A stretch of 26,001 nucleotides of DNA, taken from a virus. The notes below the pieces were generated by a model that worked only from the letters and a program-made list of their open reading frames with translations, was not told the DNA's origin and did not search any database. The translations under genes were made by a program, and so were the position numbers. Positions 11,933-16,780 of this stretch are shown here, piece by piece; the first letter of the stretch is position 1, and each line of letters opens with the position of its first letter. The stretch is from the IMG/VR virus record IMGVR_UViG_3300037882_000503, positions 1 through 26,001 of that record, one strand, 5' to 3'.

Positions 11933-13334
11933 CCTTCCAATTTTTGGCGGGTCATACGCCACCAAATCGAAGCTGTTTAGCGCTCAGCAGCTTACGAATT
12001 TTTACTACGTACCAGCACAGGGCGCAGCATTATCTGATGGGTACATCATCGGTACTGACGGGATAACTCAGGTCGCTACCATTGGCAATTACCGCAACGT
12101 CTCGCGCGGATCGCTAGTGATGGATGGTATTGGTTATTACGTTCAGGGCGAAAGGCTTGTACGACTCAATGCTGATATGACTTTGACCGATCTTGGCGAG
12201 ATTGCCGGTGAGGATCGGGTATCGATGGCCACCAACGGCACCCAGCTAATGATTCTCAATGATCTTGGTGATGGGTACATATTCGAGGCGGGGACACTTA
12301 CTGATATCACAGCGCCGGGATTCACTGACAACGGGATACCGCAAATAGCCGTTTACTTTGATGGCTATTTCATCTGCTCAACCGATGAAAAGAAATTCAT
12401 TAAGTCTGACATTGATGACGGTTTTGTATGGAACCCATTGGACTTCTCTCGTGCCGATGGCGATCCCGATGAGATAGTCGCCCCGCTGAGCTTCCGTGGC
12501 CAGCTTTATATGTTGGGAGCTATTACCGGTGAGGCATTCCAGAATGTCGGCGGCGCTGACTTCCCTATCGCAAAGATTAAGGGCCTTATCATTAACAAAG
12601 GTCTTTCATTCCGTCATGCCGTTGTATCTGCCTCTGATTCATTTTTCTGGATTGGAGCGGGGGAGAATGAATCCCCTGCTGTTTGGTCGTCCAATGGGCA
12701 ATCAGCCGACAAAATATCAACAGACGCTGAAGATTTCATCATCCGTGGCGAGCTTCAAAAGGAAGGAATTCAAAATACCTTCGGATTCTATTACGCGCAG
12801 GACGGGGCTTATTTTGTTGGATTCAGCCTCCCTACAAAAACGATAGTTTATGAGCTGATGGCAAAGCGCTGGCACATGCGTGAATCGATTATTGATGACA
12901 TTAGCGAGCGCTGGCGGGTTAATTCGCTGTGCCAAGTTTATGGTGGAATCTATGTCGGCGATAGCCAAGATGGGCGAATTGGAAAGCTGTCTGACGATGT
13001 TTATCAAGAGTATGGAAACTCGATAATTAGCACATGGATCACGCAGCCATTTTCAAAGCTTGGTGAGTATTTTTCTGTACCTATGCTTGAGGTCGCTTGT
13101 GAGTCAGGTGTCGGTACCAGAGAAGATCCCAACCCACAGATTAGGCTGTCATGGTCTAAAGATGGTCGTAATTTCAGCGATGAGCGCCCAAGAGCATTGG
13201 GCAAGGTCGGGGAGTATCTTCGTCGCGCTATCTGGCGCAGGCTTGGCGGATTCTCTCGATTGGCAGTTATGAAGCTTGTTATCTCAGACAACTGCAAAAA
13301 AATTATTTTGAAAATGGAGGCGGATATTCAATGA
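11919..13334 (+). CDS. P22 gp10-like tail hub / DNA stabilisation protein, 471 aa
   Basis: P22 gp10 (472 residues) forms the hub below gp4 to which the needle and spikes attach. This product is essentially the same length and begins MAIVSLPIFGGSYATKS, like the family's 'PI.gG.Y....' start, followed by repeated beta-propeller-like strands (DGIGYYVQGERLVRLNAD, GQLYMLGAITGEAFQNVGG, VGDSQDGRIGKLSDDVY). Fragments such as GREDPNPQIRLSWSKDGRNF-type sequence at about 405-430 and FSRLAVMKLVISD at the end match the C-terminal domain. ATG 11919 is the true start; the frame upstream lies within the gp4-like gene. Confidence 0.85.
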   Translation: MAIVSLPIFGGSYATKSKLFSAQQLTNFYYVPAQGAALSDGYIIGTDGITQVATIGNYRNVSRGSLVMDGIGYYVQGERLVRLNADMTLTDLGEIAGEDRVSMATNGTQLMILNDLGDGYIFEAGTLTDITAPGFTDNGIPQIAVYFDGYFICSTDEKKFIKSDIDDGFVWNPLDFSRADGDPDEIVAPLSFRGQLYMLGAITGEAFQNVGGADFPIAKIKGLIINKGLSFRHAVVSASDSFFWIGAGENESPAVWSSNGQSADKISTDAEDFIIRGELQKEGIQNTFGFYYAQDGAYFVGFSLPTKTIVYELMAKRWHMRESIIDDISERWRVNSLCQVYGGIYVGDSQDGRIGKLSDDVYQEYGNSIISTWITQPFSKLGEYFSVPMLEVACESGVGTREDPNPQIRLSWSKDGRNFSDERPRALGKVGEYLRRAIWRRLGGFSRLAVMKLVISDNCKKIILKMEADIQ

Positions 13335-13588
13335 CAGGCATATCTCCACCAGTTCCACATTTGCCAATTACAGATGATCGCATGGTCATGCAGCAATCTT
13401 ATATGCAGTGGACGCAGGATATTAGCCAAAGAATTCCTATAAGGGGTGATGGCTCGCCTGAAGGGGTGGTGAGCGCACCTCAATACACTGAATACATCGA
13501 CAGAACCGGAACAACCGGATCAATCAAGTGGATAAAGATGCTGCCAAATATTGCTGGCGATGTAAAAGCCGGATGGGTGCTTGAATGA
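13331..13588 (+). CDS. Small virion protein at the tail-needle position, 85 aa
   Basis: ATG 13331 overlaps the gp10-like stop by four bases, where P22 has its needle gene 26. The product is only 85 residues, against 233 in gp26, so it cannot be a full trimeric coiled-coil needle. Its C-terminal half (GSPEGVVSAPQYTEYIDRTG, IKWIKMLP, GWVLE) matches the 'GsPeGvv.A..gt.Y.d..G..g...y.K..g....GW' module seen at the ends of many phage tail proteins. The first 40 residues may be a helix. It could be a fibre tip or adaptor; I do not call it a needle. Confidence 0.6.
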   Translation: MTGISPPVPHLPITDDRMVMQQSYMQWTQDISQRIPIRGDGSPEGVVSAPQYTEYIDRTGTTGSIKWIKMLPNIAGDVKAGWVLE

Positions 13589-14145
13589 TATTCAAAAAGA
13601 TACTGTCAGGGCTTAACGTTGAGCCTATTAGGCTTTCACTTTTTAGCAATCCTCAGCTTTGGGATCAGAACCCGCAGCGCAGGATTGGAAATGGAAGCCC
13701 GCACAGTGAAATGACAGATATATGGGTCAGGTTTGGCGATACGTCTAACGGGGACTTTTCCTCATCGGTGGCTGAGCATGATTCTATTTGGTATCCGTCT
13801 GCTGATGTGATTGAAGGCGCCAAGAGAATAGCTTTTGATGTAATGGCGGCTGTTGATGGTGAGCGGCTTGGCGGGATACTGATTACAAAGTTGCCGCCCG
13901 GTGGTAGAATACACCCACACTCTGATTCAGGGTGGCACGCTGAGTATTATGAAAAGTTTTATGTAGCCATTTCCGCACCCGATAAATCAGTATTTGGGTT
14001 TGATGGCGGCGAAATTATCGCAGATAACGGCGATTGCTGGTTGTTTAGAAACAACATAGCCCACTGGGTTATAAACGACAGCGATCAAGACCGTATTTCG
14101 ATGATTATTTGCATAAAGACTGACAAATTCATGGGTGCCGCATGA
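13585..14145 (+). CDS. 2-oxoglutarate/Fe(II) oxygenase-like protein, aspartyl/asparaginyl hydroxylase type, 186 aa
   Basis: The double-stranded beta-helix core is suggested by PPGGRIHPHSDSGWH (residues about 104-118), giving the H-x-D iron site as H112 and D114, and GDCWLFRNNIAHWVINDSDQ (149-168), giving the distal His160, with R170 as a candidate 2-oxoglutarate-binding Arg. This is the layout of the aspartyl/asparaginyl beta-hydroxylase group (PF05118). An intact triad suggests an active enzyme. The substrate is unknown: it could be a virion protein, host protein or small molecule. It overlaps both neighbours by four bases, so it is part of the virion operon. Alternative: an inactive jelly-roll structural protein, less likely given the conserved triad. 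Confidence 0.75.
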   Translation: MIFKKILSGLNVEPIRLSLFSNPQLWDQNPQRRIGNGSPHSEMTDIWVRFGDTSNGDFSSSVAEHDSIWYPSADVIEGAKRIAFDVMAAVDGERLGGILITKLPPGGRIHPHSDSGWHAEYYEKFYVAISAPDKSVFGFDGGEIIADNGDCWLFRNNIAHWVINDSDQDRISMIICIKTDKFMGAA

Positions 14146-14495
14146 CAGCAGAAAAGATCGAATTACCAGAAGTAGAGCTTGCCCTTCCTGACGGAATTTT
14201 CATCAAGCAGATGCTGATGGAAAAGACCGGCACACATGTCCCACAGCACTCACACACCTATGAACACGCCTCTATGCTGGCGGCTGGATCAATTCGCGTC
14301 TGGCAAAACGGCGAGCTTATGGGTGATTTTAAGGCTCCTATACCTATTAACATTCCCGCATACATCAAACACACGTTTATGAGCCTTGAGCCTAACCCGG
14401 TTGTTTACTGCATTCACAGAATAGACCGGACTGGGCAGGTTGATATCCACGAAGAGCACCAATTCAGCGATCAATTTATCAGCGAGGTTAGCTAA
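14142..14495 (+). CDS. Cupin-fold protein, 117 aa
   Basis: Residues about 28-80 show a cupin: THVPQHSHTYEH (H36, H38, E41 or H42 as candidate metal ligands), LAAGSIRVWQNGEL with the strand and turn after motif 1, then INIPAYIKHTF (Pro72, H77) as motif 2. The first and second motifs are spaced as in small single-domain cupins. It starts in an ATGA overlap with the oxygenase-like gene, so the two are probably translated as a pair. Function could be metal-dependent chemistry, ligand binding, or a jelly-roll spike cap. No specific substrate can be read from the sequence. Confidence 0.7.
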   Translation: MTAEKIELPEVELALPDGIFIKQMLMEKTGTHVPQHSHTYEHASMLAAGSIRVWQNGELMGDFKAPIPINIPAYIKHTFMSLEPNPVVYCIHRIDRTGQVDIHEEHQFSDQFISEVS

Positions 14496-15077
14496 ATGCC
14501 TTGGGGTGTAGCAATAGCAGCAGCCGTAAGCGCTTATGCGGCAAACAGACAAAACGCAGCCGCTAAAGATGCGTCAAAAGCTCAATCCGCTCAGAACCAG
14601 CAAGAGCGCGACTTTATTCTTAAGCAAACCAGCCAAGCCAGAGACGATGTTAATCGAATCTATGGCGGGCAGGCTCAAAATTCAATGATGGGAGGTCAGG
14701 CGGCGCTTGATATTTTGCGTGGCGCACTCCCTCAGCAGGCTGGACTTTTTAATCAGGGGCAGAATAACGCAATGTCGGCGATATTGGGCGGACAGGTCAC
14801 GCCGTTTGCGCAGCCTGATTTTGGGTTTATCCCTCAGTCATTGCCTCAATACGGCACATACCAGCAAGTTGCACCAAGTGGCGCGCAGCCTATTGGGCCG
14901 GATCAAATGGGTGTCAATCAAGCGGCAAATCAGGCAGCAAAAAATGGACTCCCAAGCACTAAAGACCTTCTTAATCCGCTGAATTACGCAAAAGATCCGG
15001 TCGGCGGCGCAAAGTCTATCGTGAAGAAAATCGAATCTAAAGACCCTGTTCGTAAGGCCCTCAAAAAATTATTTTAG
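14496..15077 (+). CDS. Ejection (DNA transfer) protein, gp7-like, 193 aa
   Basis: The N-terminus WGVAIAAAVSAYAANRQN is a short hydrophobic Ala helix of the sort seen at the start of many podovirus ejection and internal virion proteins. It is followed by a Gln/Ala-rich helix (KAQSAQNQQERDFILKQTS), a Gly/Gln/Pro-rich flexible middle, and a basic end (KKIESKDPVRKALKKLF). Length is near P22 gp7 (229 residues), and it opens the run of proteins in the gp7-gp20-gp16 position. In P22 these leave the virion ahead of the DNA and form a conduit across the cell envelope. It begins right after the cupin stop. Confidence 0.65.
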   Translation: MPWGVAIAAAVSAYAANRQNAAAKDASKAQSAQNQQERDFILKQTSQARDDVNRIYGGQAQNSMMGGQAALDILRGALPQQAGLFNQGQNNAMSAILGGQVTPFAQPDFGFIPQSLPQYGTYQQVAPSGAQPIGPDQMGVNQAANQAAKNGLPSTKDLLNPLNYAKDPVGGAKSIVKKIESKDPVRKALKKLF

Positions 15078-15085
15078 GTGGAGTA

Positions 15086-16780
15086 ATGACAAAGATGATT
15101 AATCCATCAATGCAAAATCAAATGATGAGGGCGCCTACACCTCAATATCTGGCCATGAGCGCAGCACAAGGCCAGCAACAAATGCAGCCCCAAGTTATGC
15201 CTTCACAGCCCACAGCTCAGCCTTACCAATACACACCAGCAGCAGCCCCTCAAATGCCTAATATGCAGTATGGCCTACAGGGCAGCGAATCCGCCTTGGG
15301 TGCTGGCTATCAGCAAGCGCTAAGCGGTGTTCAAGGCGGAGTTGATATGGCTCGGCAAGCTCTGCTTGGTTCAACAGGGCTTGGCATAAATACCGGCTTG
15401 GCTGGACAGCAGCTATATGGCAATCAAGCAATCAATGCTTTGCAGGGTGCGCAAGGCTATAACCAGATGCTTGGAAATAAAGCCATAAATACGATCGGAG
15501 GCGCAAACCAGCAACAACAGTTATACGGTAATCAGGCGCTCGGAAGCATAAATAACGCAGTTGGTATGCAGCAGCAGTTCGGCAATCAAGCACTTGGCGG
15601 ATTGAATAACGCCCTGTCATCTCAGCAGCAGTATGGAAACCAAGCTCTAGGCGCCATCAATAAGGCAACTGGAGCGGCGTCGAGCGCGATAAATAAAGGG
15701 CTAGGAAGTGTTAATACCGCATTTAATGAAGGTGTTAGTGCTTTAAATCAGTATATTCCGCAAGGAACTAATGCCTTTAACCAAATGGCTAATTTTTCAG
15801 GATCTGGCCCTGGCGGTGCAGCGGCGCAACAACAAGCCTATGACAGCTACATGGAAGGCCCTGATATTGCATTTTTGAGAGAGCAGGGCGAAAGGTCTGT
15901 TCTTCAGAATGCGCGCGCGGCTGGAGGTGTTGGTGGAAACGTATTGAAAGAGCTTCAGCGATACGGAACTGGGGTGGCATCGCAAGGATTCAATGATTAC
16001 TACAATCGATTAAAGGGTGTTGCAGATATGGGGTTTGGCGCCTCTCAAGGTGTTGGATCGCTAAGGGGTCAGCAAGCCGGAATCGTTGGTAATCTTTCTT
16101 CTCAGCAGGCGCAAAATGCATTGCAGGGCGGCCAAATGTCGTCCAATGTTTTAAGCAACCTTGGAAATAATGCAATACAAGGTGCGCAGATTGGTGCGGG
16201 GATTTTAGGAGATATGGGAAGCAGCGGCCTTCAGGGTGCTCAATTGTCATCAAATGTCCTTGGCAACATGGGTTCAAATACCATGCAAAATGCCAATGCG
16301 GCGGCCAATATTTATGGCAACCTTGGGTCAAATTACAGCAACACAGCTGGGCAAATGGCTAACGTTTATGGTGATCTTGGCGCGGGGTCGATGAATGCGT
16401 CAAACACACTGGCAAACATGTACAACAATGCCGGGTTAAGCGCTGGCGATTATGCTTATGGCACCGGACAGCTTCTTTCTGGTGGTAGATTGCAGGCTGG
16501 TCGAGATATTTCCGCAATACAACAGGCGCAAGGCCAAGGCTTGTCAAATATTGTTGGCGGAGGCGCTTCAAATATTGCTCAGTTGTTGTCTGGTGTCGGT
16601 GATACGATTAACACGCAACAAGGCAATTTAGCCAGCATACTTGCCAACCTTGCAACCAACACATCAAGCACAGCAGGCAATCAAACAAGCGTGGCGCAGT
16701 TTATGAAGTCGCCGGACTACGTTAATCAGTTGTCGCAAGTTCTTGGCGCAGCTGGTGCGGCGTATCAATACGGGAGATAA
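15086..16780 (+). CDS. Ejection-type virion protein with two 18-residue repeat arrays, 564 aa
   Basis: The protein is very rich in Gln, Asn, Gly and Ala with almost no cysteine, as expected for an unfolded, ejectable protein. A Pro/Gln-rich leader (1-60) is followed by a first array with G112, G130, G148, G166 and G184 exactly 18 apart (core YGNQALG.INNA), a non-repeat middle (about 230-320, including FLREQGERSVLQNARAAGG), and a second array anchored at L346, I364, L382, M400, S418 and M436, again 18 apart (core LQGAQLSSNVLGNMGSN). Eighteen residues equal five helical turns, so long amphipathic helices are likely. GGTGGAG provides the ribosome binding site. It sits in the P22 gp20-like position. 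Confidence 0.7.
   Translation: MTKMINPSMQNQMMRAPTPQYLAMSAAQGQQQMQPQVMPSQPTAQPYQYTPAAAPQMPNMQYGLQGSESALGAGYQQALSGVQGGVDMARQALLGSTGLGINTGLAGQQLYGNQAINALQGAQGYNQMLGNKAINTIGGANQQQQLYGNQALGSINNAVGMQQQFGNQALGGLNNALSSQQQYGNQALGAINKATGAASSAINKGLGSVNTAFNEGVSALNQYIPQGTNAFNQMANFSGSGPGGAAAQQQAYDSYMEGPDIAFLREQGERSVLQNARAAGGVGGNVLKELQRYGTGVASQGFNDYYNRLKGVADMGFGASQGVGSLRGQQAGIVGNLSSQQAQNALQGGQMSSNVLSNLGNNAIQGAQIGAGILGDMGSSGLQGAQLSSNVLGNMGSNTMQNANAAANIYGNLGSNYSNTAGQMANVYGDLGAGSMNASNTLANMYNNAGLSAGDYAYGTGQLLSGGRLQAGRDISAIQQAQGQGLSNIVGGGASNIAQLLSGVGDTINTQQGNLASILANLATNTSSTAGNQTSVAQFMKSPDYVNQLSQVLGAAGAAYQYGR

Follow-up and report, generated by a model that had tools for sequence, protein, structure and literature searches.

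The window, that is, the whole 26,001-nt stretch of DNA analysed here (IMG/VR virus record IMGVR_UViG_3300037882_000503), carries a P22-like virion operon. Its genes are ordered as portal (phrog_156), scaffold and coat positions, an Hc3/gp10-like stopper upstream of the cassette (profile match to phrog_578, E 4e-102), an 85-aa ORF, an oxygenase-like gene (H), a small cupin gene (C), an ejection-type gene (E) and, two genes 3' of the H/C pair, a DNA-ejection-like gene (phrog_598, E 7e-18). In P22 the matching interval is occupied by genes 26 and 14, and gene 7 comes next. ATGA junctions couple the 85-aa ORF to H and H to C, with an H-C overlap of 4 nt, and the stop codon of C abuts the ATG of E (14493-14496). 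An earlier note on this DNA had described H and C as a coupled pair between tail-hub-type and ejection genes, and this arrangement was confirmed, both ORFs lying at the coordinates tabulated below. The 85-aa ORF is kept in the closest relatives only and was therefore placed outside the cassette. Comparison of the window with locus L005 gave a dN/dS of 0.072 in H and, with dS saturated, one of 0.022 in C, and because of this purifying selection and the conserved metal triad described below, chance ORFs were ruled out for both genes. PADLOC returned no match.

Table. Features of the H/C cassette and its neighbours (positions in the window).
Feature	Coordinates	Strand	Basis or remark
Upstream ORF, 85 aa, function unassigned	13331..13588	+	ATGA overlap with H
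H, PF05118-type Fe(II)/2OG oxygenase, 186 aa	13585..14145	+	ORF, Pfam, predicted fold
H triad codon H112	13918-13920	+	
H triad codon D114	13924-13926	+	
H triad codon H160	14062-14064	+	
H codon R170, 2OG-type Arg	14092-14094	+	
C, cupin, 117 aa, four-His site	14142..14495	+	ORF, alignment, predicted fold
C codon H36	14247-14249	+	
C codon H38	14253-14255	+	
C codon H42	14265-14267	+	
C codon H77	14370-14372	+	
E, gp7/T7-gp14-position ejection-type protein, 193 aa	14496..15077	+	N-terminus MPWGVAIAAAV
E codon Pro2	14499-14501	+	proposed substrate residue
DNA-ejection-like protein (phrog_598)	15086..16780	+	next after E

H scored above the Pfam gathering cut-off for PF05118 (Asp/Asn beta-hydroxylase; E 1.7e-8, 34.9 vs 22.6 bits), in agreement with its earlier description as an Asp/Asn-hydroxylase-like protein with an intact HxD...H triad (H112, D114 and H160). 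Loss of this triad among homologues had been named beforehand as evidence that would refute the earlier note's reading of the pair; the triad was present in 156/156 distinct H sequences. At the position of R170, an Arg following the distal His which we take to be the 2OG-binding Arg of PF05118 enzymes, 141/156 sequences have Arg, 13 Tyr, and one each Ile and His. The Tyr-bearing clade (L026, L114-L117, L119-L124, L126 and L127) keeps the triad, the four-His cupin and a proline at residue 2 (Pro2) of E. A structural model of H (mean pLDDT 94.2) has the double-stranded beta-helix oxygenase fold according to Foldseek and VIA-align matches, the top Foldseek PDB match being L-proline cis-4-hydroxylase (4p7w, E 4.3e-9), with human AspH (5apa) at 2.8e-7. 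VIA-align returned proline 3-hydroxylase 1e5r (Z 15.6, rmsd 2.6, 151 aligned), 4p7w (Z 15.5, rmsd 2.7, 169 aligned), a nucleoside-antibiotic hydroxylase (Z 15.2) and AspH (Z 14.6, rmsd 2.8, 156 aligned); with Z differences below 1 read as ties, the nearest folds of the modelled protein would be L-proline hydroxylases, tied with AspH. Searching PDB sequences with a profile of H gave, among 2OG oxygenases, proline 3-hydroxylase (E 0.022), the nucleoside-antibiotic beta-hydroxylase just named (0.066) and 4p7w (0.57), all of them weak matches. From its sequence, H is an Fe(II)/2OG oxygenase-type protein with a conserved active site and a predicted hydroxylase.

The earlier note had also recognized a small cupin with candidate metal ligands, a description that holds for C. 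Although its score against Cupin_2 (PF07883) is below the Pfam gathering score (14.5 vs 27.2 bits), the model of C is a cupin barrel (mean pLDDT 76.5, core blocks 84-95) with 247 PDB matches at E <= 0.001. Residues H36, H38, H42 and H77 are invariant in an 18-sequence alignment extending down to 25% identity, and form an HxHxxxH plus distal His layout, predicted to be of the four-His type. All four His were present in 119/119 distinct cupins associated with H, none being broken, and in 0/55 distinct H-less cupins of the set assembled before the E-selected scans. A mixed alignment of cupins was too divergent to serve as a query. H and C are thus each a member of a known superfamily.

For E of the window, profile searches gave no significant family match. 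Among its homologues elsewhere, 5/6 matched the PHROG category 'DNA ejection' and some records annotate DNA ejection. P22 gp7 is grouped with T7 gp14 as an outer-membrane ejection protein in a review (PMC8954989).

The idea of the cassette as a rare insertion was rejected after IMG/VR scans with H profiles, which yielded 424 H relatives among 443 stretches and 487 among 524; the two sets overlap, and the best 80 relatives of each were kept. A species-genome scan gave 20 H relatives, some of them on contigs from soil isolates that hold an H-bearing prophage (Paraburkholderia tropica LMG 22274, Cupriavidus basilensis KF708 and Variovorax boronicumulans NBRC 103145), and H was present in only 3/50,697 phage records. 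Loci were gathered with H, cupin and E queries, and the class frequencies given here are therefore not population frequencies. Among 150 distinct-E loci with H, the orders were HC (101), CH (18), SH (17), HG (8) and H alone (6), where S is a sulfotransferase-like protein (1/4 tested above the Pfam cut-off) and G a GNAT acetyltransferase-like protein. The gene 5' of H varies, being terminase-like in L002, sulfotransferase-like in SH loci, the cupin in CH loci and the 85-aa ORF in the window. The gene 3' of the cassette is constant across the HC, CH, SH, HG and H-only orders and encodes an Ala-rich protein in the gp7/T7-gp14 position. This adjacency to E is kept in differently arranged genomes, with one exception (L067), in which H is present and no E-like gene follows.

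Cupins of this kind also occur on their own. When the cupin of a relative was used as tblastn query, 50 phage records matched, and in each of the ten examined the cupin lay directly 5' of an E-type gene. Nine of these E-type genes are annotated as, or resemble, the ejection gene of a virion operon; in the tenth (R8W) the cupin is followed by a gene for an 82-aa protein starting MSFVATAV, which precedes the connector gene. No H was found in the stretches of these 10 records that were read, and their cupins lack the full set of metal ligands. In VPMS1, BA3, VvAW1, X14 and R8W (L030, L032, L036, L033 and L035), the degenerate cupin preceding the ejection gene carries the annotation short tail fiber protein or tail fiber adhesin, labels that look like propagated misannotation.

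Other proteins occupy the same slot. A sulfotransferase-like P-loop protein with a GLPRSRTAWL motif takes the cupin's place 5' of H in L046, L047, L061, L062, L064, L065, L067, L070, L073, L075, L079, L086, L099 and others, and L323 has a sulfotransferase-like protein, no H, and an E with Gly2. A divergent H accompanies a GNAT-like protein in L002 (8983-10055), L003 (8992-10056), L276, L311, L326, L328, L372 and L374; where resolved, the E proteins of these loci start with MVAAAV or MGVT, never MP. In L299, L310, L317 and L329, which have neither H nor cupin, other small proteins fill the slot before E, and one slot protein of an unassigned family (about 145-150 aa) goes with E proteins with MPNP or MPDP ends. 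Limnohabitans phage DC33 (PQ492659.1, L002) is filed under Inoviridae, although the genes next to H in its 39-kb genome are of podovirus type. Two similar H loci about 30-40 kb apart were present in each of IMGVR_UViG_3300027734_000108 (L016/L019) and IMGVR_UViG_3300026519_000012 (L064/L068), perhaps reflecting a concatemer or assembly duplication.

The residue following the initiating Met of E was then compared among 280 distinct E proteins, with N-termini inferred from DNA. A four-His cupin was accompanied by Pro2 in 125/125 distinct E (119 with H and 6 without), and a broken cupin in 0/96, residue 2 being Ser in 65, Thr in 21 (Ser/Thr 86), Ala in 8, and Gly and Val in one each. Pro2 was likewise found with H plus S (17/17), with H alone (6/6) and overall with H in the absence of a GNAT (142/142). 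With H plus GNAT it was found in 0/8 (Val in 5, Gly in 1, two starts unsure), and with neither H nor cupin in 10/28. Residues D45, W117 and K124 of H are invariant in 148/148 non-GNAT sequences; in the 8 GNAT-paired H proteins, whose E lack Pro2, W117 and K124 are absent in 8/8 and D45 is kept in at most one. Position 3 of E is variable (of 148, W in 102, F in 22, A in 15 and other residues in the remainder), and residue 2 of the gene after E, used as a control, showed no link (Pro in 17/131 with the cassette, 18/88 with a broken cupin and 9/35 others). The 6 distinct E with a four-His cupin, Pro2 and no adjacent H represent 11 loci, and H was not found elsewhere in the records of 5 of them (20 records searched in all, being contig fragments). 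A simpler rule, in which Pro2 follows H alone, is weakened by these loci, by Pro2 with neither gene and by Val2 with GNAT-paired H. Since the E-selected scans contained both H-less Pro2 loci and loci with Val2 and H, the tight pair is that of cupin site and Pro2: the cupin metal site covaries with E residue 2.

Loci cut before E and L067 were excluded from these counts, as were L202, L203, L204 and L210 (E-cupin overlap above the rule; MTW starts by eye) and L215, L216, L218 and L219 (start unresolved). The E starts of L085, L027 and L263 were set by hand from the DNA as MPW, MPA and MPW, respectively, L263 having a short ORF between H and E; all others were picked by ribosome-site score, start codon and, partly, distance and length, with residue 2 playing no part. 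Met1 is normally removed by the host aminopeptidase when it precedes residues of the types seen at position 2 of E. Apart from unsure starts and one Leu, all position-2 residues permit this removal, and residue 2 is therefore probably the true end of mature E.

Shared descent was considered as a source of the covariation. Between phages with and without the cassette, the E proteins from residue 26 onwards (E bodies) can share more than 50% identity. On an E-body tree of 97 rows, from which eight rows with long branches had been dropped and in which 69 rows have a known cupin state, that state changes 10 times, and over well-supported branches 6/6 independent contrasts were concordant with Pro2 in 200/200 pairings (p 0.031). 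An earlier 105-row tree with the cassette as trait gave 6/6 in 177/200 pairings, and five concordant pairs plus one non-differing pair in the other 23; with H as trait only 4 independent pairs were available, usually 3 of them concordant. Further E clusters point in the same direction: L001, which has H, starts with MPW and L030/L031, whose cupin is broken, with MSW, while L041 and the window start with MPW and L206 with MSW. The cupin's own tree shows 2 changes of state, with about one clade per state. The many changes on the E tree, set against 2 on the cupin tree, indicate that cassettes moved under different E bodies, and as each cupin state forms about one clade, each E-body contrast could stem from a recombination in which the opening codons of E moved together with the cassette. 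Selection is nevertheless the simpler reading of the Pro2 link, as Pro2 stays constant although position 3 does not and although C, H or some other gene can lie directly beside E.

Comparison with known systems gave partial parallels. The L-proline hydroxylases 4p7w and 1e5r share the fold of H and are its best PDB matches, but they act on free L-proline and have 260-280 residues with an extra C-terminal part, whereas H has 186 aa and lies in a phage virion operon; the alignment of H ends at target residue 175-185, so that the length and C-terminal part of these enzymes have no counterpart in H. Human AspH is a protein hydroxylase that shares PF05118 with H and has a fold within 1 Z of the best, but H lacks its TPR domain and EGF-like substrate, and structural alignments show 10-13% identity. 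The chlorovirus collagen prolyl hydroxylase vCPH (5c5t), a virus-encoded 2OG prolyl hydroxylase, matches the fold of H and differs in subfamily, virus and substrate type, with no tie to an ejection protein. Small Mn cupins of the TM1459 and hydroxynitrile-lyase types are among the best fold matches of C and share its HxHxxxH...H layout; His52 and His58 of TM1459 are metal-site residues according to PDB entry titles. C is, however, about 11-25% identical to these cupins, which have no phage virion setting. In gene position, the T7 gp13-gp14 and P22 gp14-gp7 pairs resemble the cassette in placing a small protein directly before a gp14-like ejection protein, and T7 gp14 starts with MCWAAAIP, close to MPWGAAAA. 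T7 gp13 (PF11090) and P22 gp14 (PF11039) nevertheless belong to families other than those of H and C, and hhalign of T7 gp13 with the cassette GNATs, with only two sequences on one side, gave no match. Neither the cassette nor matched evolution of a cupin metal site with one ejection-protein residue was found in the open-licence PMC papers searched.

The conserved active sites, the fixed adjacency to E and the covariation of cupin site with residue 2 are the observations from which we infer that H and C form a maturation cassette for the E protein encoded directly 3', in which H would hydroxylate N-terminal Pro2; we put the probability of this reading at about 0.5. Host methionine aminopeptidase would remove Met1 of E and expose Pro2, H would then hydroxylate this N-terminal proline as the likeliest site, and the four-His cupin would bind or further process the proline end. 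In other phages a sulfotransferase-like protein, or H alone, would stand in for the cupin. By analogy with T7 gp14, finished E would be packed and then injected as the outer-membrane part of a DNA conduit. E as substrate, Pro2 as site and the purpose of the modification are all read from this pattern and carry different weights: action of the cassette on E is likely, and the E N-terminus is the better-supported place of action. Non-GNAT H goes with Pro2 even where no cupin is present, its closest folds are those of proline hydroxylases, and D45, W117 and K124 are kept in this class only, D45 with at most one exception; four-His/Pro2 loci lacking H, and loci in which Pro2 is preceded by other genes, argue against H acting on this residue. 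The fold tie with AspH, the replacement of R170 in 15 H proteins and the lack of an E-like gene after H in L067 also count against the reading; given this mixed evidence, hydroxylation of Pro2 by H is held at about even.

The same loci suggest an alternative in which E is still the partner of the cassette but the target of H is a different E residue or another virion protein, the cupin alone reading Pro2 and the H-Pro2 link being indirect. The four-His cupins with Pro2 and no H (6/125 distinct E) and the Val2 or Gly2 of GNAT-paired loci are consistent with this, but cupin-less H still goes with Pro2, both alone and with the sulfotransferase-like protein, and class-specific H residues change when residue 2 changes; we regard it as unlikely. 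H and C might instead be assembly factors or virion parts that retain an enzyme fold and chaperone membrane-active E, with the residue-2 link due to recombination hitch-hiking. T7 gp13, a 'probable scaffold', precedes gp14 as P22 gene 14 precedes gene 7, cupins without metal ligands fill the same slot, and the cupin tree shows only about two switches of state. Against this stand the invariant triad of H, the four-His site of every H-associated cupin and the fixation of Pro2 despite a variable residue 3 and a changeable neighbour, and a chaperone role of this kind appears unlikely.

Targets outside E fare less well. Action of H on a host molecule, for example an LpxO-like hydroxylation of lipid A, or on a metabolite, would fit a weak similarity to the LpxO model (NCBIfam NF033391, E 0.0022) and the occurrence in phages of 2OG oxygenases described in the literature as auxiliary metabolic genes (PMC9599517). 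The score of H is, however, far under the cut-off of that model (17.1 vs 500 bits), and H sits in a virion operon beside E, with whose residue 2 the cassette covaries, making a host target improbable. The earlier note had suggested a modified virion protein, for example a needle or fibre residue, or a host molecule acted on at entry. A virion-protein target is retained as likely, and tail-type genes are indeed often upstream of the cassette, but the upstream gene is not constant between lineages; the constant neighbour is E, whose residue 2 follows the cassette, and hydroxylation of needle or fibre is accordingly very improbable.

Extending the preferred reading, maturation of E at its N-terminus, to podophages generally, we tentatively suggest that these phages possess an N-terminal maturation system for the first ejection protein, a possibility we hold with less than even confidence. 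Residue 2 and the adjacent enzyme would evolve as a matched pair: Pro with a 2OG oxygenase and a four-His cupin or sulfotransferase-like enzyme, Ser/Thr with a cupin devoid of metal, and Val/Ala in many cases with an acetyltransferase-like protein. There is no settled account of how short-tailed phages keep a membrane-active protein quiet in the particle and let it open in the host envelope, nor a clear chemistry for the small genes that precede it, such as T7 gene 13 and P22 gene 14; a metal site that switches with one ejection-protein residue offers a sharp test on one peptide. If the proposed O2-requiring hydroxylation of an N-terminal proline is true, the DNA conduit of the particle would depend on chemical tailoring, phages would encode an enzyme acting on an N-terminal proline and possibly useful as a tool for modifying proline ends specifically, and there would be reason to reconsider hundreds of phage genes at present labelled auxiliary metabolism or tail fibre.
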